NCBI RefSeq assembly: GCF_022227765.1
Contig: NZ_JAJMLZ010000007.1
Span: 124,001-188,000 of the forward strand
Source of the DNA: Ectothiorhodospira shaposhnikovii
Lineage (GTDB): Bacteria; Pseudomonadota; Gammaproteobacteria; Ectothiorhodospirales; Ectothiorhodospiraceae
Direction of reading: 5' to 3'
DNA length: 64,000 nucleotides
Below, piece after piece: positions 3,635 to 45,132 of this stretch. The translations under genes and the position numbers were made by a program. How positions within the stretch are numbered: the first letter of the stretch is position 1; the number at the start of each line of letters is the position of its first letter. The notes under the pieces were generated by a model. That model did no database searches and was not told the origin of the DNA. It saw nothing but the letters and a program-made list of their open reading frames with translations.

Positions 3635-3814
3635 ATGTCATCCCAGGACAAGACACTGCTGCTGTTCCTGCTCGGCGTGCTGCTGTTCGCATCGCCGCTG
3701 GTGGCGTGGTGGACCCGTTCGGGCGCCCCCTGGTATCTGCCCTACCTGCTCTGGGGCGGGATCATCGCCCTGGCCTGGGTGGTGCAATGGCGACGGGGTC
3801 GCCATGATCTCTGA
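3635..3814 (+). CDS. Small two-helix membrane protein, CbrX-like
   Basis: This 59-residue ORF encodes two hydrophobic segments: about residues 7-25 (TLLLFLLGVLLFASPLVAW) and 33-51 (WYLPYLLWGGIIALAWVV). They are followed by a basic tail (QWRRGRHDL). It ends 11 bases inside the start of cbrA, an arrangement that predicts translational coupling. A small ORF called cbrX is, from memory, described in the same place in Pseudomonas putida. The size and topology also resemble the tiny DUF3311-type partners found before sodium:solute symporters, which fits because CbrA itself carries a symporter-like domain. No molecular function can be read from the sequence. Confidence 0.7.
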   Translation: MSSQDKTLLLFLLGVLLFASPLVAWWTRSGAPWYLPYLLWGGIIALAWVVQWRRGRHDL

Positions 3815-6767
3815 GATCGGTCTGCTCTACGCCGTCGGGGTCGCCTACCTGGCGCTGCTGTTCTTCATCGCCCACGCGGCGGAAAAGGGCTGGCTGCCGG
3901 GCCGACTGGTGCACCACCCGCTGGTCTATACCCTGTCCCTGGGGGTCTACGCCACGTCCTGGAGCTTCTACGGCAGCGTGGGGTTTGCCAACACCGAAGG
4001 CTATCAGTTCCTCACCATCTATCTCGGGGTCACCCTCGCCTTCCTGCTGGCACCGTTGCTGCTGGCGCCCCTGCTGCGTCTGGTGCGGGAGTATCAGCTC
4101 ACGTCCCTGGCCGACCTGTTTGCCTTCCGCTATCGCAGCCAGTGGACCGGGGTCATCGTCACCCTGTTCATGCTGGCGGGCATCCTTCCCTACATCGCCC
4201 TGCAGATCAAGGCGGTCACCGAATCCGTTTCCGTGCTGACCCGGCAGGACACGCCTCACCTGCTGGCCCTGGGTTTTTGCGCCACCCTGATGCTGTTCGC
4301 GATCCTGTTCGGCGCCCGCCACATCACCCCCCGGGAAAAGCACGAGGGCCTGGTGGTGGCCATCGCCTTCGAGTCCGCCGTCAAGCTGCTGGCCCTGCTG
4401 GCGGTGGGCGGCTTTGCCCTGTTCGGGGTCTTCGGCGGCTTCGGTGGACTGGATGCGTGGCTGACCGCCCACCCGGAGGCCCTGGAGGCCCTCTATGAAC
4501 CGGTGCGCGAAGGCCCTTGGATGACCCTCATGGTGCTGGCCTTCGCCGCCGCCTTCCTGCTGCCGCGGCAGTTCCACATGACCTTCGTGGAGAACATCAA
4601 CCCCCGCTCCCTGCAGACGGCCACCTGGGCCTTCCCCCTGTTCCTGCTGCTGCTCAATCTGCCCATTCCCCTGATCCTCTGGGCCGGTCAGGCCACCGGC
4701 CTGCAGACCGCGCCGGACTATTACGTGCTGGGGCTGCCGGTGGCGGCGGACCAGGGCTGGCTGGCCCTGTTCACCTTCATCGGCGGGATTTCCGCCGCCA
4801 GCGCCATGATGATCGTCACCACCCTGGCCCTGGCCGCCATGTGCCTGAATCACCTGATCCTGCCGGCCCATTACCGCCAGCAGTCCCTGCCCCGGAACAA
4901 TCTCTACGGCTGGCTGTTGTGGGGCCGGCGGGTGCTGATCCTCCTCATCATCGGCATGGGTTACGGCTTTTACTGGCTGCTGGAATTCAACCAGGGCCTG
5001 GCCCAGATCGGCCTCATCTCCTTCGTCGCCGTGGCCCAGTTCCTGCCCGGCATCCTGGGCCTGCTGTTCTGGCCGCGGGCCAACCGGGTGGGCTTCATCG
5101 CCGGCCTGATGGGCGGCATCCTGGTGTGGCTGCTGGCCCTGATCGTCCCGCTGATTCACGACTCCGGCCTACCCATGGTGGATTTCAACCTGATGCGCTG
5201 GATGGGGGCCGAGGAGGAAAACCGCTGGGCTTTTGCCACCTTCTGGTCACTGACCCTCAACAGCCTGCTGTTCGTTGCCGGCTCCCTGCTCACCCGGCCC
5301 ACCCGGGAGGAACTGGAGGCCTCCCAGAGCTGCCGTCGGGAACAACTCACCCCGAGCCGGTTGCTGGGGGACGGCGAGATTCGCAACGTGGAACAGCTGC
5401 GCACCAACCTGTCCCAGGTGATCGGTCCGCAGACCGCCGCCCTGGAGATCCAGCGCGCCCTGGGCGACCTGAAGCTGGACCCCCGGGAACAACGCCCCAA
5501 CGAACTGCGCAAGCTGCGGGCACGGCTGGAACGCAACCTGTCCGGCCTGATGGGGCCTCTACTGGCGCGCATGATTGTGGACAATCGCCTGGAAGTCCCG
5601 CCCCAGACCCAGGTAGCCCTGGCGGACAGCCTGCGCTTCGTGGAGGAGCAACTGGAACACTCCACCGTGCGTCTCAAGGGACTGGCGGCGGAGCTGGATA
5701 CCCTGCGTCGCTATCACCGCCAGGTACTCCACGAACTGCCGCTGGGAGTCTGTTCCATTTCCTCGGGGGGCGACATCCTGATCTGGAACAACACCATGGC
5801 CGCCATCTCCGGCATTTCCTCCTCCTATGCGGTGGGACAGACCCTGGACGGACTCAAGGACCCCTGGGACGGGGTGCTGCGCACCTTCATCAACGGCGAT
5901 GACCGGCACCTGTACAAGCTGCAGCTCACCGTGGACGGCCGCCAGCGCCGGCTGAACCTGCACAAGGCCGCCATCGAGTCCGCCGGGCTGGGCAGTTCCG
6001 TGGCCCATGGCCTGGGGGGGATGGTGGTGCTGGTGGAGGATCTGACGGAACTGCACAATCTGGAAAGCGAGGTGGCCCACAACGACCGCCTGGCCTCCAT
6101 CGGCCGTCTCGCCGCCGGGGTGGCCCATGAGATCGGCAACCCGCTGACCGGCATTGCCTCCCTGGCCCAGAACCTGCGGTACGAAAAGGACCCCGCGGAG
6201 GTGGACCTGACTTCCCGTCAGATCCTGGAACAGACCCGACGCATCAACGACATCGTTCAGTCCCTGATCACCTTCAGCCATAGCGGTGAGGTGCCCCGCA
6301 TGCGGCCCGCGCCGGTGAACATGCGGGCCTGCGTGGACGAAGCGATTCATCTGGTACAGTTGAGCGACAGCGGTCGGGACATGCGCTGTTTCAACGAAGT
6401 GCCCGACACCCTCATCGCCCGGGGCAACGCCCAGCGCCTGTTGCAGGTCTTCGTCAACCTGATCAACAACGCCCTGCAGGCCGGCCGTCCCGGCGACCGC
6501 ATCGTCATTCGCGGCGAGTACGTCCTGGGCAGCGTGGAGATCCAGGTGGAGGACGAGGGCAGCGGCATTCCGGAATCCGTGCTCGACCGGATCTTTGAAC
6601 CCTTCTTCACCACCAAGCCCCCGGGCGAAGGGACCGGTCTGGGGCTGTCGGTGGTATACAGCATCATTCAGGACCACGGCGGCATGGTCTACGCGGACAA
6701 CCTGCCCGAGGGCGGAACCCGCTTCCATATCCGGCTGCCGGCCGTCGAAGAGGAGACCCTGGCTTGA
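3804..6767 (+). CDS. cbrA: Transporter-type sensor histidine kinase CbrA
   Basis: The 987-residue protein matches the usual CbrA length. Residues 1-500 are a multi-helix sodium:solute symporter (SSSF) domain. A linker with STAC-like helices follows to about 640, then a PAS domain ([13 protein letters not shown]). A HisKA domain has the phospho-acceptor H775 in [12 protein letters not shown], and a HATPase_c domain has the N box [20 protein letters not shown] and [12 protein letters not shown]. Such kinases couple substrate transport or sensing to a cytoplasmic response regulator. The start overlaps the small CbrX-like gene by 11 bases and the stop overlaps cbrB in TTGA, so all three are probably co-translated. 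The gene order dksA-gluQ-cbrA-cbrB supports the assignment; histidine is the known CbrA substrate in pseudomonads, but the ligand here is unknown. Confidence 0.9.
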
Positions 6768-8086
6768 ACCGAATCCTGATCCTGGAAGACGAAGCGGTGA
6801 TTCGCCGTGCCCTGCGGCGTCTCCTGGAACACGAAGGCTATCGCATCGAAGAGGCGGCCTGCATCGCCGACGCCCGCCGGCTGTGCGAGGCCTCCCGCTT
6901 CGACCTGCTGATCTGCGATCTGCGCCTGCCCGACGGCGAAGGCATCGAGATGCTCGGCCACTGCGGCGACACCCCGGTACTCATCATGACCAGCTATGCC
7001 AGCGTCCGCTCCGCCGTCGATGCCATGAAACAGGGGGCCACGGACTATATTGCCAAGCCCTTCGACCATGACGAGATGCTGTTGTGCGTGGCCCGCATCC
7101 TCAAGCAGCGGCAGCTGGAGCGGGAAAATGCCCAGCTCCAGTCCCAGCTCGGCCAGGTCTATCCGGTGGAGGGCATGGTGGGCGAGTCGCCCGCCATGCA
7201 GCAGGTATGCAGGACCCTGGACAAAGTGGCGCCCACCGATGCCACGGTCCTGATCCGGGGCGAATCCGGCACCGGCAAGGAACTGGTGGCACGGGCCATT
7301 CACAAGAAGAGCCGCCGCGCCCAAGCCCCCCTGGTCTCGGTCAACTGCGCCGCCATTCCCGAAGGACTGCTGGAATCGGAGCTATTCGGTCATGAAAAGG
7401 GGGCCTTCACCGGTGCCGCCCAAAGCCGCCAGGGATTGGCGGAAGCCGCCGACGGCGGCACTTTGTTCCTGGACGAGATCGGTGAACTCACCCCGGCTGC
7501 ACAGTCCCGGCTGCTGCGGGTGCTGCAGGACGGCGAGATTCGAAGGGTCGGTGCCAACAGCAGTCGCAAGGTGGACATCCGCCTGCTGGCGGCCACCCAC
7601 CGGGATCTGGAGCTGATGGTGCGGGAAGGGGACTTTCGCGAGGACCTCTACTACCGGCTCAAGGTCATGGAAATCGGCCTGCCGCCCCTGCGTGAACGGC
7701 TGGAAGACCTGCCCCGGCTGGCGGATTTTCTGCTGGAAAAGGCCTGTCGGCGTCTCAAGCAGGCACCGGCACGACTGGCACCGTCGGCCCTGGCGGCCAT
7801 GCAGGCCCATCGCTGGCCCGGCAACGTGCGGGAGTTGGAAAACGCCCTGGAACGGGCGGTGATCCTGGCCGACGGCGACTGCATCGCCGCCGAACACCTG
7901 GGCCTGACCCCCGGACCGAGCCAGGAAGCGACCCCGGACACCAGCCTGGAGGACTACTTCCGCCGCTTCGTGCTGGAAAATCAGGCCCGGATGACCGAAA
8001 CGGAACTGGCCCGGCGGCTGGGCATCAGCCGCAAGGCCCTCTGGGAACGGCGCAACCGCATGGGCATCCCCCGCCCCAAAGCCTGA
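6764..8086 (+). CDS. cbrB: NtrC-family sigma-54 response regulator CbrB
   Basis: The 440-residue protein begins with a receiver domain (acidic pocket E8/D9, phospho-acceptor D52 in ICDLRLPDGEG, Lys in IAKPFD). It continues with a sigma-54-interacting AAA+ domain: Walker A GESGTGKE, the sigma-54 contact loop GAFTGA, and Walker B GGTLFLDEIGE. It ends in a Fis-type helix-turn-helix (TELARRLGISRKALWERR). The start is TTG, overlapping the cbrA stop. CbrB activates sigma-54 promoters for use of poorer carbon sources. A strong enhancer-like palindrome lies only 4 bases beyond its stop, followed by a sigma-54 promoter, so the downstream uptake cluster is its likely direct target. Confidence 0.9.
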   Translation: MNRILILEDEAVIRRALRRLLEHEGYRIEEAACIADARRLCEASRFDLLICDLRLPDGEGIEMLGHCGDTPVLIMTSYASVRSAVDAMKQGATDYIAKPFDHDEMLLCVARILKQRQLERENAQLQSQLGQVYPVEGMVGESPAMQQVCRTLDKVAPTDATVLIRGESGTGKELVARAIHKKSRRAQAPLVSVNCAAIPEGLLESELFGHEKGAFTGAAQSRQGLAEAADGGTLFLDEIGELTPAAQSRLLRVLQDGEIRRVGANSSRKVDIRLLAATHRDLELMVREGDFREDLYYRLKVMEIGLPPLRERLEDLPRLADFLLEKACRRLKQAPARLAPSALAAMQAHRWPGNVRELENALERAVILADGDCIAAEHLGLTPGPSQEATPDTSLEDYFRRFVLENQARMTETELARRLGISRKALWERRNRMGIPRPKA

Positions 8087-8089
8087 GCC

Positions 8090-8133
8090 TGCCTGTTACC
8101 TTGGGTAACATCCGTTACCCAAGGTAACAGGCA
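8090..8133. promoter_or_regulatory. Double-dyad enhancer-like site, probable CbrB upstream activating sequence
   Basis: A perfect inverted repeat has 20-bp arms around a 4-base centre. It contains two complete dyads, GTTACC-TTG-GGTAAC (8095-8109) and GTTACC-CAA-GGTAAC (8114-8128), centred 19 bp apart. No T-run follows, which argues against a terminator. CbrB is known to bind palindromic upstream sequences of the GTTAC/GTAAC type in Pseudomonas. The site is 50 bp upstream of a sigma-54 promoter and directly after cbrB. Confidence 0.75.
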
Positions 8134-8182
8134 TCCCGCACACACCCGTCACAAGTCCTTGTTTCCACAAGGAACAAAAACC

Positions 8183-8198
8183 TGGCACGCCTTCTGCA
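8183..8198 (+). promoter_or_regulatory. Sigma-54 (RpoN) promoter of the DUF294/symporter cluster
   Basis: TGGCACGCCTTCTGCA matches the sigma-54 consensus TGGCACG-N4-TTGCA at every defined position except one T. The GG and GC dinucleotides are correctly spaced. Transcription should start near 8208-8210, just before the DUF294 gene at 8227. Confidence 0.8.
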
Positions 8199-8226
8199 AT
8201 GGTAGCCGTCAAGACCACGGCCATCC

Positions 8227-10164
8227 ATGGATACCATGCAGACAGATCCAGGCAACAGCGCAGACCGGCAACGGGGCGTCCTCATCCCCGTGATGGAATT
8301 CCTGGGGCGCCACGAGCCCTTTGCCCGGATGGACCCGGTCCATCTGGAATTCCTTGCCAAACGCCTGCGTCTGGTCTTCTACACCCGTGACGAGCAGATC
8401 CTGAACCCCAAGTCCGGGCCCGCCGACCGATTCTTCATCGTCAAGCAAGGTCGGGTACTGGGAGAGTCCCTGGACCCCAACGGCAATCCCGTCAGCACTG
8501 CCTGGGTGCTGGCACCGGGGGAATGCTTTCCCATCGGTGCCCTGCTGGCCCGCCGGCCGGTGAAAACCCGCTACCGGGCCGCCGAGGACACCTTCTGCTT
8601 CGAGATGGACCGGGACGATTTCAATCATCTGCTCAAGATGTGCCCCGAGTTCCACGATTTCTGTACCCGCCGCCTGGCCAGCCTGCTGGACACGGTGCAG
8701 CGTCACGTGCAGTTCAGCACCGCCTCGGGGCTGGGCGGCGACACCTCCCTCAACACCACCGTCGGCGAACGCCTCCAGCGCGAACCCGTCACCTTCCGGC
8801 CGGACGCCCCCATTCGCCGGGCCCTGCAGGCCATGCAGGATGAACGCATCGGCAGCGTCATCATCACCGATGACGAGCAAAGGCCCCTGGGCGTCTTCAC
8901 CCTACACGACCTGCTCAAGCGGGTGGCCTTGCCCGAGATCGGCCTGGATCAGCCCATCAGCGCGGTGATGACCCCCGATCCGGTCACCCTGCCCTCCAGC
9001 GCCTTCGCCTTCGAGGCCGCCATGCTGATGGCCAGCCACGGCTTCCATCATCTGTGCATCGTCGACCGGGGCCGGCTGCGGGGCGTGATCTCCGAGGGCG
9101 ACCTGTTCTCCCTGCAGCGGGTCAGCCTGGCCAACCTGAGCCGCTCCATGAGCCAGGCCGAGGACGTCAATGCCCTGGCCCGCCTGGGCACCGACGTGCA
9201 CTTGCTGATCGGCCAGATGATTGCCCAGGGCGTTCGGGTGGACCAGATCACCCAGATCATCGCCATGCTCAATGATCAGCTCACCCGCCGCATCATCACT
9301 CTCTGCCTGCATGAAACCGGCGGCGACATCCCCGAGTTCGACTGGCTCTCCTTCGGCAGCGAGGGCCGTCAGGAACAGACCCTCAAGACCGACCAGGACA
9401 ACGGCATGCTGTTCTTGCCCCAGGACGGCATGACTGCGGACCAGATCCGTGCCCGGCTGCTGCCTCTGGCGGAACGGATCAACGAGGCCCTGCGGATCTG
9501 CGGCTTCCCCCTGTGCCGAGGGCGGGTCATGGCCAGCAGCCCGGAGTGCTGCCTGAGCCTGGAAGAATGGCGTACCCGTTTTTCCCGCTGGATCGACCAG
9601 GGCACGCCCGAGCACCTACTCAAGGCCAACATCTATTTCGATTTCCGGGTGCTCTACGGCGGCGAGCAGCCGGGTGCCGGGCTGAGGGCCTGGTTCCTGG
9701 AAAAAACTTCAAAGAATAGCCGTTTTCGCCGCCAGATGGCGGAAAACGCCCTGCGCCTGCGCCCCCCGCTGGGGCTGTTCGGTGACTTCAAGGTCAGTTC
9801 CGGCGGCGGGCGCCACCCGCGCAGCCTGGATCTCAAGGTCAACGGCACCACCCCCTTCGTGGACGTGGCCCGCATCTTCGCCCTGGCACTGGAGATGCCC
9901 GACAGCAACACCACACGCCGTTTCGAGGCCTGTGCCGAGGCCGGGGTGATGAAGCGGGAAGATGTGGCGGCCTGGCTCAACGCCTACCACTACATCCTGC
10001 TGCTGCGCATGCGTAATCACCATGAGCAGGCCCAGGCCGGCCAGCCCCTGAGCAATTTCATCAACCCCGAGCGTCTGGACGAACTGGAACAGCGGATTCT
10101 CAAGGAGGCATTCCGGCAAATCCGCAAACTGCAGTCACGCCTGGCGCTGGAATATCAGCTGTAA
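8227..10164 (+). CDS. cNMP-binding/CBS/DUF294 nucleotidyltransferase-like signalling protein
   Basis: The 645-residue protein has a cyclic-nucleotide-binding-like domain (about 20-150), then two CBS domains (about 180-300: ALQAMQDERIGSVIITDD, and AVMTPDPV to GVISEGDLF). A DUF294 putative nucleotidyltransferase domain (GSEGRQEQT at 377-385, TDQDN at 388-392, aspartates D389 and D391) and a DUF294 C-terminal helical domain follow. Proteins of this architecture recur beside acetate uptake and acs genes and resemble GlnD-type nucleotidyltransferases, so it may modify a partner in response to adenine nucleotides; that is inference. Translation could begin at 8227 or at the in-frame ATG 8236; neither has a strong ribosome-binding site. 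It is the first gene after the sigma-54 promoter. Confidence 0.85.
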   Translation: MDTMQTDPGNSADRQRGVLIPVMEFLGRHEPFARMDPVHLEFLAKRLRLVFYTRDEQILNPKSGPADRFFIVKQGRVLGESLDPNGNPVSTAWVLAPGECFPIGALLARRPVKTRYRAAEDTFCFEMDRDDFNHLLKMCPEFHDFCTRRLASLLDTVQRHVQFSTASGLGGDTSLNTTVGERLQREPVTFRPDAPIRRALQAMQDERIGSVIITDDEQRPLGVFTLHDLLKRVALPEIGLDQPISAVMTPDPVTLPSSAFAFEAAMLMASHGFHHLCIVDRGRLRGVISEGDLFSLQRVSLANLSRSMSQAEDVNALARLGTDVHLLIGQMIAQGVRVDQITQIIAMLNDQLTRRIITLCLHETGGDIPEFDWLSFGSEGRQEQTLKTDQDNGMLFLPQDGMTADQIRARLLPLAERINEALRICGFPLCRGRVMASSPECCLSLEEWRTRFSRWIDQGTPEHLLKANIYFDFRVLYGGEQPGAGLRAWFLEKTSKNSRFRRQMAENALRLRPPLGLFGDFKVSSGGGRHPRSLDLKVNGTTPFVDVARIFALALEMPDSNTTRRFEACAEAGVMKREDVAAWLNAYHYILLLRMRNHHEQAQAGQPLSNFINPERLDELEQRILKEAFRQIRKLQSRLALEYQL

Positions 10165-10322
10165 GGACATCAGGGCAGAACCCGGGCCCAAGGGAATGCA
10201 GAGCCCATCACCCACAACAGGACAAGGAACCCAACCCCTTGATTCACGCATTCAAGATGGAGGCAAGACCACATGCAGTCCGACCCTAACCCGGCATACC
10301 GAATGTATCGGAGGAGTCCATT

Positions 10323-10685
10323 ATGAGTGAAAAAATGAGAGATCTTCTCAAAAAGATCCTGGCGGAAGAAAGCGGCATCAGCGCCAAGACCCGGGAGCAG
10401 ATTCAACAGACCCTGGCTTCCGCCGGTAGCCTGGAAGAGCAGAGAAGCGCCTACTGGAAGGCCAATCTGAGCATCCTCGGCTGGTGTCTGGGGGTGTGGT
10501 TCATCGCCGGCTACCTGCTGCCCATCTTCATGGTGGACGCGCTCAACACCATGTCCATCGGCGGTTACCCGCTGGGCTTCTGGATGGCGCAGCAAGGCTC
10601 CATCTACACCTTCCTGGTGCTGATCTTCTTCTATGCCTGGTGGATGAACCGCCTGGACAAGAAGTTTGACGTCCACGAAGAATGA
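10323..10685 (+). CDS. DUF4212 small subunit of sodium:solute symporter
   Basis: The 120-residue protein has a charged N-terminal segment (residues 1-38) followed by YWKANLSILGWCLGVWFIAGYL and YTFLVLIFFYAWW, two predicted transmembrane helices. These match the DUF4212 family, the small partner encoded immediately before VC_2705-type sodium:solute symporters. GGAGG precedes the ATG. The 158 bases upstream carry no convincing promoter or terminator, so it is probably transcribed with the DUF294 gene. The symporter follows after 21 bases. Confidence 0.9.
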   Translation: MSEKMRDLLKKILAEESGISAKTREQIQQTLASAGSLEEQRSAYWKANLSILGWCLGVWFIAGYLLPIFMVDALNTMSIGGYPLGFWMAQQGSIYTFLVLIFFYAWWMNRLDKKFDVHEE

Positions 10686-10706
10686 TAACGACTGGGGGAT
10701 AATCCT

Positions 10707-12473
10707 ATGGATCTTAAATTAATGATCTACCTGGTGGTCGGTGCCACCTTTGCGCTGTACATAGGCATCGCCATCTGGGCCCGGGCAGGCAGCACCGGGG
10801 AATTCTACGTGGCCGGCAAGGGCGTCAACCCGATCGCCAACGGCATGGCCACGGCGGCCGACTGGATGTCCGCGGCCTCGTTCATCTCCATGGCGGGTCT
10901 GATCGCCTTTTTGGGCTACAGCGGCTCGGTCTACCTGATGGGCTGGACCGGCGGCTACGTGCTGATGGCCCTGCTGCTGGCGCCATACCTGCGCAAGTTC
11001 GGCAAGTTCACGGTGCCTCAGTTCGTGGGGGATCGCTTCTACTCCAACGGCGCGCGCATCGTGGCGGTGATCTGCCTGCTCATCATCTCCATCACCTACG
11101 TGATCGGGCAGATGCGCGGCGTGGGTATCGCCTTCTCGCGCTTCCTGGAAGTGGACATCCTCTGGGGCCTGATCGCCGGCATGAGCATCGTGTTCGTGTA
11201 CGCCGTGCTCGGCGGCATGAAGGGGATCACCTACACCCAGATCGCTCAGTACGTGGTACTGATCTTTGCCTATACCGTGCCCGCGGTGTTCATCTCCATC
11301 CAGCTCACGGGTCACTTCCTGCCCCAGACCGGCCTGGGCGCCACCCTCTCCGGTGACGACAGCCGTTACCTGCTCGACGCCCTGGACGGCATGATGGTGG
11401 ATCTGGGCTTTGCCGAGTACACCACCAACGCCAGCTTCAGTACCCTCAACATGTTCCTGCTGACCATGGCGCTGATGATCGGTACCGCCGGCCTGCCCCA
11501 CGTCATCATCCGTTTCTTCACCGTCCCCCGCGTGCGTGACGCCCGCAAGTCCGCCGGCTGGGCCCTGATCTTCATCGCCCTGCTCTACACCACCGCTCCG
11601 GCCGTGGGTGCCATGGCCATGTACAACCTGGTGAACACCCTCTACCCCGGCGGTGTGGGCAACGTCAGCGAAGCCATGGTCTACGACGAGCGTCCGGACT
11701 GGATGCGTACCTGGGAAAACACCGGCCTGCTGGTATTCGAAGACAAGAACGAAGACGGCCGCATCCAGTACTACAACCAGAACAACCCGCCGGCCTTCGT
11801 GGCCGAGAACGACCTGCAGGGCAATGAACTGGTGCGTCTGGACCGCGACATCATGGTGCTTGCCAACCCGGAAATCGCCAGCCTGCCCAACTGGGTGATC
11901 GCGCTGGTGGCAGCCGGTGGTATCGCGGCGGCTCTGTCCACCGCGGCGGGTCTGTTGCTGGCCATCTCCTCGGCCATCTCCCATGACCTGCTCAAGGGGG
12001 TGTTCATGCCCAAGATCTCGGAGAAGAACGAGCTCATGGCAGGACGCATCTCCATGGCGGCGGCCATCCTCCTGGCCGGTTATCTGGGGCTTAATCCACC
12101 AGGCTTTGCGGCCGAGGTGGTGGCACTGGCATTCGGCCTGGCGGCATCCTCCCTGTTCCCCGTGCTGATGCTGGGTATCTTCTACAAGCGGATGAACAAG
12201 GAAGGCGCCATCGCCGGCATGCTCACCGGTCTGTTCACCACCCTGATCTACATCTTCCTGTACAAGGGCTGGTTCTTCATTCCGGGCACGGCCATGCTGC
12301 CTGACAATGCCAGCGGCTGGATCATGGGCATCTCGCCCCAGGGCTTCGGTACCATCGGTGCCATTCTGAACGTCACCGTGGCACTGATCGTCTGCAAGCT
12401 GACGGCTCCGCCGCCGAAGGAAATCCAGGCCCTGGTGGAAAGCGTGCGCGTGCCGCGCGCCGACACCGCCTGA
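10707..12473 (+). CDS. Sodium:solute symporter, VC_2705-like, probable acetate/short-chain acid uptake
   Basis: The 588-residue protein is an SSS-family permease with about 13 hydrophobic helices. Family motifs include GKGVNPIANGMATAADWMSAASF near the N-terminus and the helix MIGTAGLPHVIIRFFTV. It is longer than ActP-type permeases because of an insertion at about 325-390. That insertion contains an EF-hand-like loop, DKNEDGRIQYYN (346-357). The adjacent DUF4212 partner and nearby acs gene suggest uptake of acetate or a related monocarboxylate; the substrate is inferred, not read from residues. A GC-rich hairpin follows the stop. Confidence 0.88.
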   Translation: MDLKLMIYLVVGATFALYIGIAIWARAGSTGEFYVAGKGVNPIANGMATAADWMSAASFISMAGLIAFLGYSGSVYLMGWTGGYVLMALLLAPYLRKFGKFTVPQFVGDRFYSNGARIVAVICLLIISITYVIGQMRGVGIAFSRFLEVDILWGLIAGMSIVFVYAVLGGMKGITYTQIAQYVVLIFAYTVPAVFISIQLTGHFLPQTGLGATLSGDDSRYLLDALDGMMVDLGFAEYTTNASFSTLNMFLLTMALMIGTAGLPHVIIRFFTVPRVRDARKSAGWALIFIALLYTTAPAVGAMAMYNLVNTLYPGGVGNVSEAMVYDERPDWMRTWENTGLLVFEDKNEDGRIQYYNQNNPPAFVAENDLQGNELVRLDRDIMVLANPEIASLPNWVIALVAAGGIAAALSTAAGLLLAISSAISHDLLKGVFMPKISEKNELMAGRISMAAAILLAGYLGLNPPGFAAEVVALAFGLAASSLFPVLMLGIFYKRMNKEGAIAGMLTGLFTTLIYIFLYKGWFFIPGTAMLPDNASGWIMGISPQGFGTIGAILNVTVALIVCKLTAPPPKEIQALVESVRVPRADTA

Positions 12474-12488
12474 TCTTCCACCCAACCG

Positions 12489-12511
12489 GGGGACCCGCAC
12501 CGCGGGTCCCC
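12489..12511 (+). terminator. GC-rich hairpin after the symporter
   Basis: GGGGACCCGC and GCGGGTCCCC form a perfect 10-bp stem around the loop ACC, 15 bases after the symporter stop. No T-tract follows, so it may be a weak terminator or an mRNA 3'-end stabiliser. Confidence 0.5.
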
Positions 12512-12670
12512 TCCCCATGCACCGGATCAAGATGTCTGTGCCGGCGCCATCCCGAAAGGCGTGACGCCCACACAGACTGCTTGTTCAGAACCTGGCCGAG
12601 GCAATGGCCAGAATGACGTCGGATGGGCATGATATGGGGTTTCCCCGCATCAGCCCGGAAGACAAGACGG

Positions 12671-13711
12671 ATGGATGTAAAGACGCTGATCAGCCAGGTG
12701 AAGGAGGCTGAGGCACGACACGACCTTGAGCAACTGGGGCGCCGACTCCCGGCACTGCAGATCCGGCTGATCCGCGACAGCGCGGACGCCAACGCACTGG
12801 GGCATGCCATCTCGGACCTGGCGGACGCCTTCACGGGGCGTTTCATCCAGCTGGCGGAGGCCTCCCTGGGTCCTCCCCCCATGCCCTATGCCTGGGTAGC
12901 CTGCGGATCACAGGGGCGGCGGGAGCAAACCGTGCATACGGATCAGGACAACGCCCTGATCCTGGCAAGGGCCGCGGATCGGGAGGCGTCAGGGTATTTC
13001 GGCGAACTGGCCGAACAGGTCGCGACGGGACTGGATGCCTGCGGGTTCGTTCTCTGTTCGGGAGAAGTGATGGCCCGCAACCCGGAATGGCGTCAACCGC
13101 TGGAACACTGGGAGCGCAACTTCAGGGGATGGATCGAACAACCGGAACGAAAATCCGTGATGCTGGCGCAGAACTTCCTCGATCTTCGCTGTATTCACGG
13201 AAAAATCGATCTTCTGGAGCAATTGCGCCGTCGTATCCTGACCATGATCCGGCACAACGCGGGATTCATGGCGGCGCTGGCCATGGAAGCCCTGCATGAC
13301 CGACCACCGCAGTGGTTGCCCGGCGGCCGGCTGTCACGACTGATGCGGCAATCGCCGGTGCTGAACATCAAGCGGGCCGGCATCATGCCCATCGTCGGCC
13401 TGGCTCGTCTGCTGGCCCTGGCGGACGGTGTGATGGTGCTGGGAACACGCGAACGTATCCGTGCGGCGGTCGCCAGCGGTCGACTGAGTGAGTCCGGCGG
13501 ACGGGATCTGACAGCCGCCTGGGATTGCATCACCTTGATGCGCGCCCGACACCAGGTGCATTGCCTGGAACAGGGCGGGAAGGCGGACAACCGGCTTGAT
13601 GTCGGCAACCTGTCGCAGCCGGAGCGGCGACAGTTGCGGGAGGCATTCAAGGTGGTGCGACTCATCCAGAACACGACGGGGCGGCGCGTTGCCGGTTTTT
13701 TGCTCCAATAA
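12671..13711 (+). CDS. Minimal DUF294 nucleotidyltransferase-like protein
   Basis: The 346-residue protein is a shortened relative of the gene at 8227. It keeps the DUF294 domain (GSQGRREQTVHTDQDN at 79-94, aspartates D91 and D93) and the C-terminal helical DUF294 domain, but has no cNMP-binding or CBS region. The ATG at 12671 is preferred because it begins a helical segment typical of the family; an in-frame start at 12623 would add 16 unremarkable residues. It sits between the symporter and acs, and its stop is 215 bases before acs. A role as a partner or counter-enzyme of the longer DUF294 protein is plausible but unproven. Confidence 0.75.
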   Translation: MDVKTLISQVKEAEARHDLEQLGRRLPALQIRLIRDSADANALGHAISDLADAFTGRFIQLAEASLGPPPMPYAWVACGSQGRREQTVHTDQDNALILARAADREASGYFGELAEQVATGLDACGFVLCSGEVMARNPEWRQPLEHWERNFRGWIEQPERKSVMLAQNFLDLRCIHGKIDLLEQLRRRILTMIRHNAGFMAALAMEALHDRPPQWLPGGRLSRLMRQSPVLNIKRAGIMPIVGLARLLALADGVMVLGTRERIRAAVASGRLSESGGRDLTAAWDCITLMRARHQVHCLEQGGKADNRLDVGNLSQPERRQLREAFKVVRLIQNTTGRRVAGFLLQ

Positions 13712-13926
13712 GGTGCGGATTCGCACAGGAATGTGGCAGCAATAATAAGCCCGGGTTATTCTGGAATAAGTCCGGTCATTGCCGGCCATGACAGGAACCA
13801 GGCATCCAGGGCCAACGCACGGCGACAGGACACAGACAGCACAGTCCGTAGAGACCCGGGAACAGGATTTCTGCCGACCCCGATGGTGGTTGGCTACGTT
13901 TCAAATGTCTTTTTGAGGAGGAACCC

Positions 13927-15870
<1,944 letters not shown>

Positions 15871-15900
15871 GCCAGGTCGGGCACAACAAGGATGGTTGCG

Positions 15901-15933
15901 ACGGGGGCACGGCATGCCGTGCCCCCGTTCAAT
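15901..15933. terminator. Bidirectional terminator between acs and nudF
   Basis: Bases 15901-15928 are a perfect 28-bp palindrome (ACGGGGGCACGGCA and its complement), followed by TTCAATTT on the + strand. It sits between the convergent acs and nudF stops. Confidence 0.7.
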
Positions 15934-16527
15934 TTACCCGCCCCAACGCTCCCTGAGGCCATCCCGATTCAAGCGCAGCCACTGCAGGGCGATGATGGTC
16001 ATGGCCGTATCCACCTGCATCCGGTCCAGGCGGTCAAATGCCTCCTCCGCGGGCAGCACATGCACCCGGATCTCTTCTCCCTCGTCGGCCAGGCCATGGA
16101 CGCCTCCGGCCTCTCCCAGATCCGCGCGCGCCACGAACAGGGAAATCCGTTCCGAGGAACTGCCGGGCGTGGAATAGTAGTCATGGATGTGCACCAGTTC
16201 ATCCAGCCGGCAGTCCGCCTCTTCCAGCGCCTCCCGGCGTGCCACGGATTCCGCCCGCTCTCCCGCGTCCATGAGGCCGGCGATGATCTCCATCAGCCAG
16301 GGACCGTGGGGCGACTCGATGGCGCCCACCCGGAACTGCTCCACCAGCAGCACGACATCGCGTACCGGATCATAGGGCAGCACGCCGGCCGCATGACCAC
16401 GGTCCAGGAGCTCCCGCTCGATGACCATGGGCTCTCCGCCTTCAAACCGGCCATGGGACAGACGCAACCGGCGCAGGTGGAAGAAACCCCGATACAGGTC
16501 TTCGAGCTTGAGTATTTCCCATTTCAT
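15934..16527 (-). CDS. nudF: ADP-ribose pyrophosphatase (NudF-type Nudix hydrolase)
   Basis: The 197-residue protein aligns along its length with E. coli NudF, including LYRGFF, RGHAAGVLPYDPVRDVVLLVEQ, SERISLFV and HGLADEGEEIRVHV. The Nudix box runs from GLMDAGE to RREALEEADC and keeps the catalytic glutamates, but has Asp where the consensus has Gly. It would hydrolyse ADP-ribose to AMP and ribose-5-phosphate. The start at 16527 is chosen because AGGTGA lies 7 bases upstream; an in-frame ATG at 16572 would add 15 residues. Confidence 0.92.
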   Translation of the reverse strand: MKWEILKLEDLYRGFFHLRRLRLSHGRFEGGEPMVIERELLDRGHAAGVLPYDPVRDVVLLVEQFRVGAIESPHGPWLMEIIAGLMDAGERAESVARREALEEADCRLDELVHIHDYYSTPGSSSERISLFVARADLGEAGGVHGLADEGEEIRVHVLPAEEAFDRLDRMQVDTAMTIIALQWLRLNRDGLRERWGG

Positions 16528-44679: not shown

Positions 44680-45132
44680 TTACTCTTCCACGCCCACCAC
44701 AACCACCTTCACGGTGGCGTTGACGTCGGTGTGCAGGTGCACGGCCACTTCGAACTCACCGGCATGACGCAACGGGCCTTCGGGCAGGCGCACTTCGCGC
44801 TTTTCCAGCTCCACGCCGGCGGCCTTGGCGGCATCCGCGATGTCGTTGGTGCCGACGGAACCGAACAGCTTGCCTTCGCTGCCGGCACGGGCGTTGATGG
44901 TCAGGGTCATGGCTTCCAGCTTGGCCTGACGGGCCTGAGCAGCGGCCAGGGCCTGAGCGGCGGCCTTTTCCAGTTCCGCGCGGCGGGCCTCGAACTCGGC
45001 GATGTTCGCCTCGGTGGCGAACTTGGCCTTGCCCTTGGGCAGCAGGTAGTTACGGGCGTAACCGGGGCGCACGCGCACCTTGTCGCCCAGGCTTCCCAGG
45101 TTTTCCACCTTTTCGAGAAGAATCACTTCCAT
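44680..45132 (-). CDS. rplI: 50S ribosomal protein L9
   Basis: The 150-residue protein begins [36 protein letters not shown], the L9 signature, followed by the long connecting helix and the C-terminal domain. The length matches E. coli L9 (149). It closes the rpsF-rpsR-DUF2232-rplI cluster. Confidence 0.99.

Follow-up and report, generated by a model that had tools for sequence, protein, structure and literature searches.

We propose that positions 8090-8198 are very likely a CbrB-dependent sigma-54 promoter, switching on the genes dufA-DUF4212-SSS-DUF294-acs, by which acetate or a similar carboxylate would be taken up and activated. Positions are those of the window, this being the whole 64,000-nucleotide stretch of Ectothiorhodospira shaposhnikovii DNA that was analysed. 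In the proposed mechanism CbrB, on a signal presumably passed on by CbrA, would bind, probably as dimers, to two operators of NtrC geometry (TGTTAC-N5-GTAACA) lying 19 bp apart, and would contact the sigma-54 polymerase waiting at 8183-8197; transcription would thus depend on rpoN. The five genes would be transcribed together, and the cell, when short of carbon, would use their products to import and activate acetate or a similar short carboxylate. The features are collected in Table 1.

Table 1. Features of the cbrAB-acs region, in window coordinates.
Feature	Position	Strand	Basis or remark
cbrA, transporter-like sensor kinase	3804-6767	+	HisKA and HATPase_c above cut-off; orthologues in 37/37 own-family genomes
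cbrB, REC - sigma-54 AAA+ - HTH response regulator	6764-8086	+	domains, HTH, tree
Perfect inverted repeat with 20-bp arms, holding both predicted operators	8090-8133	+	arms 8090-8109 and 8114-8133, 100% complementary; 4-nt loop
Predicted operator dyad 1, TGTTAC-N5-GTAACA	8094-8110	+	pattern search, conservation, promoter alignment
Predicted operator dyad 2, CGTTAC-N5-GTAACA	8113-8129	+	19 bp from dyad 1; centre 75 bp from -12
Predicted sigma-54 -24/-12 promoter, TGGCACGCCTTCTGC	8183-8197	+	one mismatch; conservation, spacing; RpoN in genome
TTGTTTCCacaAGGAACA element (TTGTTTC...GGAACA), partly conserved, just upstream of -24	8159-8176	+	promoter alignment
dufA, cNMP-binding - CBS pair - DUF294 nucleotidyltransferase-like protein	8227-10164	+	domain search
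DUF4212 small symporter subunit	10323-10685	+	TIGR03647
VC_2705-family sodium/solute symporter	10707-12473	+	TIGR03648
Second DUF294 protein	12623-13711	+	domain search
acs, acetate--CoA ligase	13927-15870	+	TIGR02188, 1046 bits (cut-off 725)

The repeat and the -24/-12 element both lie in the intergenic gap between the cbrB stop at 8086 and the dufA start at 8227. The initial annotation described a perfect repeat with 20-bp arms, made of two GTTACC-N3-GGTAAC dyads, and a sigma-54 promoter downstream of it with one mismatch; both descriptions are correct, the dyads (8095-8109 and 8114-8128) having no mismatches. This is the longest perfect inverted repeat in the window with a loop of up to 12 nt, three mononucleotide shuffles reaching 10-11. 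There are two other matches to GTTACC-N3-GGTAAC in the window, each needing 2 mismatches, with 0.41 matches expected in all. Elsewhere in the 3.34-Mb genome there is no exact copy of the 15-mer dyad and a single site that differs at 1 position (3 sites in all, as many as for the reversed control pattern), while GTTACN{3,7}GTAAC occurs 3 times, two of these being the present pair, against 16 for the reversed control. The dyad motif is not over-represented genome-wide, and the unusual feature is the adjacent perfect pair. A search of the same genome for other CbrB targets with a strict consensus, both half-sites being exact and close, found none but an N4 dyad at window 45049-45062. The sigma-54 pattern alone is within chance (29 sites with up to 2 mismatches, 34 expected), and the -24/-12 element draws its weight from conservation and spacing, not from the single match. 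The element just upstream of it, whose GTAACA is intact at the corresponding position in G007 and G009, is perhaps a degenerate third CbrB dyad, or may be a DNA-bending site.

NtrC enhancers have the form TGCACY-N5-GRTGCA, a geometry that the 6-N5-6 dyads of the window match. The paired sites and the downstream sigma-54 promoter are also shared with NtrC enhancers, but the half-site and the regulator are different. In 44 of 45 dyad-bearing promoters there is a sigma-54 match (up to 3 mismatches) downstream of the last dyad, G274 having none. The distance from the dyad centre to the -12 is 72-76 bp in 35 of them, 82-86 in 7, 94 in one and 106 in one, these distances clustering one helical turn apart. 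Thirteen lineage values, one per lineage and hand-picked after the distances were seen, have a phase coherence of 0.76 at 10.5 bp, a value reached by 0.00015 of random draws from 70-110.

The regulator encoded in front of the repeat is identified as a CbrB orthologue by the tree, by gene order and by its HTH. In the tree 31 CbrB rows group at 100/100 against 11 other activators, and the window protein, with its REC-AAA-HTH architecture, lies within this clade. The gene order dksA-gluQ-cbrA-cbrB is present in the window, and dksA and gluQ also lie upstream of cbrA in 8 of the 9 named loci, the ninth ending short upstream. The DNA-binding helix and domain of CbrB are conserved. CbrA is 49% identical to that of P. 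fildesensis, and by alignment consists of an SLC5-like domain and then PAS-HK, its N-terminus aligning with Pseudomonas CbrA; by Pfam the PAS domain is below cut-off and SSF is not reported. Aligned to the published histidine pocket (PMC13022988), the CbrA ligand pocket keeps some of the positions given there and has others changed.

CbrAB is called unique to Pseudomonadaceae in a review (PMC8871633), and a vent isolate, which is not a Thioalkalivibrio, has been published with CbrA/CbrB among its two-component systems. In a class sample of 369 gammaproteobacterial genomes cbrA was matched in 39, and dufA in 44. Photosynthetic reaction-centre genes are found in the present genome, and likewise in 10/10 genomes of the genus and in a single further genome among the 24 of its family that were searched, so that the organism is a phototroph outside Pseudomonadaceae. 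Its CbrB also falls outside the Pseudomonas branch of the tree, which bears out the earlier suggestion of a CbrAB-like system in a non-pseudomonad.

For the sigma-54 promoters of crcZ, crcY and PP2810 in P. putida, the upstream subsites used by CbrB are reported to be TGTTAC and GTAACA; the protein is described as a monomer, and its subsites as non-palindromic and spaced 20-25 bp apart (PMC6296734). The half-site of the window is the same as this published subsite and likewise stands upstream of a sigma-54 promoter, which marks it as a predicted CbrB operator. The compact form of the dyads, set against a monomer on spaced subsites, counts against a reading based on CbrB; in the P. fildesensis crcZ promoter, the half-sites are 19-26 bp apart. 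It is worth adding that upstream of dufA in the sister genus g3 (L155-L169) the base following GTTAC is often G, not C, and that the CbrB recognition region of g3 (C-termini of L131, L136 and L141) reads KTLWERRQRExLPR, against KALWERRxRMGIPR. A co-change of operator base and recognition region is possible.

Within the family, cbrA is found in 37/37 genomes, and in all 37 a GTTAC-N5-GTAAC dyad lies no more than 330 bp upstream of the point where dufA homology begins, though these counts include close relatives and are inflated by kinship. The search for such dyads upstream of sigma-54 promoters in related genomes, which the initial annotation had put forward, thus gave the expected answer at dufA. 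In 15 of the genomes dufA is directly behind cbrB, in 3 it is at 1.1-1.7 kb, and in 19 it is farther away or on another contig; in G024 the two are about 1.07 Mb apart on one contig. Since the dyad is kept where dufA is away from cbrB, the site goes with the operon, and not with the 3' end of cbrB. Within 300 bp behind cbrB, half-sites occur in 14/14 loci where dufA comes next (two with a single half-site; G003, at a contig end, was added separately), in 7/9 named CbrB loci from elsewhere, and in 1/23 remaining loci, many of which have dufA elsewhere with the dyad upstream of it. The nine named loci were split after inspection, the seven with half-sites being CrcZ-type and L004 and L006 being put among the others, and one of these other stretches behind cbrB is only 128 nt long (L128). 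RpoN is present in all 25 own-family genomes searched, the present one included. The -24/-12 element in the family promoters has up to 2 mismatches in 34/37 and 3 in the remaining 3, which supports its reading as a sigma-54 promoter, and an alignment of 14 promoters shows the half-sites, a TGNTT element and the -24/-12 as the only parts that are invariant or nearly so.

Outside the family the dyad follows the presence of CbrB. Of the 44 genomes with a dufA match, 23 were examined (4 own-family, 19 outside), and 21 weaker or partial matches were left out; the 19 are the closest dufA matches, with 20 promoters, and include G055. A dyad is present at dufA in 8/10 of the outside genomes with CbrB and in 0/9 of those without (Fisher p = 7e-4, relatedness ignored). 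CbrB is present in G115 and G370, where the cbrA search gave no match. The difference is seen even within families: in f127, G162 and G370 have CbrB and the dyad and G275 has neither, and in f83, G345 has both and G118 neither. There are two exceptions. In G237 the dyad is directly behind cbrB, ahead of acs-DUF4212-SSS, and not at dufA. In G197, which has CbrB, there is no dyad at dufA, and a CrcZ-type locus lies behind cbrB; upstream of dufA is the 17-mer CTAGACTTACGTCCAAT, which appears letter for letter among the CrbR-motif examples given for P. fluorescens in PMC5715377, and the same gene here carries the predicted motif of the other regulator. Across 71 unrelated activator loci (1.04 Mb) no GTTAC-N5-GTAAC-type dyad was found.

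Four genomes were looked at without being counted. Three have the symporter and no CbrA (G045, G046, G051), and no dyad cluster lies directly upstream of their symporter pair; G050 has CbrA, and one dyad directly upstream of its symporter pair. A GTTAC-N5-GTAAC dyad in G050 (L171:5433-5484) precedes a second DUF4212-SSS-DUF294 cluster, on a contig other than that of cbrB. In 21/39 CbrA genomes an acs-like gene (51-100% identity) is found downstream of cbrB at a distance of up to about 10 kb, a count in which the lowest-identity matches may be other ligases and several contigs end short. In eight genomes from four families acs is directly behind cbrB with no dyad, which counts against the proposal. 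In G395, G190 and G359 (L213, L214, L226) the dyads behind cbrB precede genes other than dufA, and CbrB may have further direct targets there.

Domain searches agree with the earlier listing of the genes as cNMP/CBS/DUF294, DUF4212, SSF, DUF294 and an AMP-binding acs. The earlier choice of acetate as substrate is probably right. The acs product passes the acetate--CoA ligase equivalog cut-off, but the symporter falls well below that of ActP (TIGR02711, 145.5 bits against 1099), its family being TIGR03648; the substrate is probably acetate or a similar short carboxylate. In two genomes the symporter match contains one in-frame TGA stop (G025:C8:130108-131877 and G020:C41:23366-25135). No report of CbrB control of acs was found among the titles and passages of the open literature surveyed, and a word search of the available text of PMC6296734 returns no acs, ActP or acetyl-CoA.

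In P. fluorescens, the genes reported to be under CrbR are acs, actP and its DUF485 partner, and Pflu5625, whose cAMP-binding, CBS and nucleotidyltransferase domains are those of dufA (PMC5715377). Because both sets comprise acs, an acetate symporter accompanied by a small partner, and a dufA-like protein, the block resembles a CrbR regulon placed under CbrB; CrbS/CrbR (MxtR/ErdR) differs in having a LuxR-type regulator, an RpoD promoter and the ACTU motif (PMC5715377). Could CrbS/CrbR be the working acetate switch for the block in this genus, with the CbrB site a minor input? The matching P. fluorescens genes are under CrbR (PMC5715377), and a CrbS-like kinase is found in 10/10 genomes of the genus, with a fragment in G003, the label being by resemblance to a transporter-kinase beside acs in G050, not to an authenticated CrbS. 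The copy in the present genome (G000:C35:156369-159065; L178:6346-9087) lies beside hemB and does not adjoin the block, Pfam finds no REC domain in it, though CrbS is described as a hybrid kinase, and there is no response regulator among its tested neighbours; its name is therefore uncertain. A loose CrbR pattern built from the published examples (TANNACYNNNGTC) has 2 matches in the window, both more than 19 kb from the block, and the CbrB dyad is invariant in the promoter alignment. We regard such control by CrbS/CrbR as unlikely. The kinase nevertheless means that the initial annotation went too far in placing CbrAB in this genome in place of CrbR/ErdR. In the sister genus g3 such a replacement is plausible, the single kinase match in each of 20/20 genomes being CbrA itself and none CrbS-like. 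In G051, which lacks CbrA, a CrbS-type kinase lies between acs and the symporter pair.

Three further explanations of the palindrome were weighed. Genomes of the group carry several related activators, and another NtrC-family sigma-54 activator might bind the dyads in place of CbrB; this is decidedly improbable, given that the half-site is CbrB's own, and that of the nine CbrB-less genomes which keep dufA eight still have related activators and none has the dyad. The repeat could also act mainly as RNA, ending or stabilising the cbrAB message, and it can indeed fold into a strong hairpin (-37.5 kcal/mol, z -8.2) starting 3 nt past the cbrB stop codon. However, no terminator-like site is reported in 8000-16200, and 22 own-family genomes have dyads upstream of a dufA that is not directly after cbrB, with half-sites at 0/21 of the examined cbrB 3' ends of such genomes. 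Moreover, in G006, G007 and G009 the long palindrome is interrupted, whereas the promoter-proximal half-sites are retained. The dyads accompany the operon rather than the 3' end of cbrB, and this reading was rejected as very improbable. It is barely credible that this long intergenic palindrome belongs to a family of extragenic repeats or arose by chance: it is the sole exact copy in 3.34 Mb, for which reason the repeat element was rejected, and it is conserved in 37/37 family genomes. Direct control by CbrB, as the initial annotation proposed, is supported by the match to the P. putida subsite, the conserved HTH, and an operator that follows the operon and CbrB across genomes; against it stand the compact dyads, the CrbS-like kinase, G197 and the hairpin.

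The window has much in common with the CbrAB-CrcZ circuit of Pseudomonas and Azotobacter (PMC6296734, PMC8871633), namely orthologous cbrA-cbrB behind dksA-gluQ, the half-site TGTTAC/GTAACA, and a sigma-54 promoter directly behind cbrB. The target is different, being a protein operon with acs and not the sRNA CrcZ, which in Pseudomonas is what CbrB activates from this position, as is the arrangement, with compact N5 dyads here and subsites 20-25 bp apart there (PMC6296734, PMC8871633). No Rfam CrcZ was found at 6-16 kb of the window and no AAnAAnAA motif in the 350 nt behind cbrB. We accordingly class the system as a CbrB orthologue, and not as a CbrAB-CrcZ catabolite repression circuit. Nine loci were selected because they combine CbrB half-sites with a sigma-54 promoter: two Pseudomonas-group records, Halomonas maura, Litchfieldella, two Gilvimarinus, a Cellvibrionaceae genome, G197 and G398. 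With 9-28 AAnAAnAA motifs over the following 350 nt, more than in any of 500 mononucleotide shuffles, they look like CrcZ-type loci; the Rfam CrcZ model matches two of the seven submitted. CrcZ-like A-rich transcripts are predicted behind cbrB in L005, L008, L009, L012, L016 and L224, outside Pseudomonadaceae (Litchfieldella, Gilvimarinus, Halomonas, Cellvibrionaceae, G398), and Rfam CrcZ missed all five that were tested.

In the CbrB tree, which has 14 open forks of 39, eight of the nine CrcZ-type loci (those included) fall in one 11-row branch (100/100), three of whose rows, L004, L006 and L151, have no CrcZ-type locus in the stretch examined. This branch is nested in branches with acs-linked lineages (99/94 and 96/88), which suggests that the CrcZ output is the later one. 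Tentatively, and with the odds somewhat against so broad a scheme, CbrAB may have been at its root a gammaproteobacterial switch for acetate or carboxylate scavenging, acting through NtrC-type dyads on acs operons. The CrcZ sRNA circuit, regarded as the hallmark of CbrAB in Pseudomonas, would then have arisen later, by rewiring within a single sub-branch (Pseudomonadaceae, Halomonas relatives, Cellvibrionaceae), where the compact dyads would have separated into half-sites with wider spacing.

If the proposal is true, CbrB, described as unique to Pseudomonadaceae (PMC8871633), has a wider and testable role, that of directly controlling acetate scavenging in gammaproteobacteria, phototrophs among them. 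For binding and structural studies of CbrB, the window would provide an operator that is cleanly palindromic. The comparison would also amount to a natural experiment, with two unrelated types of regulator, the NtrC-like CbrB and the LuxR-like CrbR, in charge of similar acetate operons and each paired with a transporter-like kinase.
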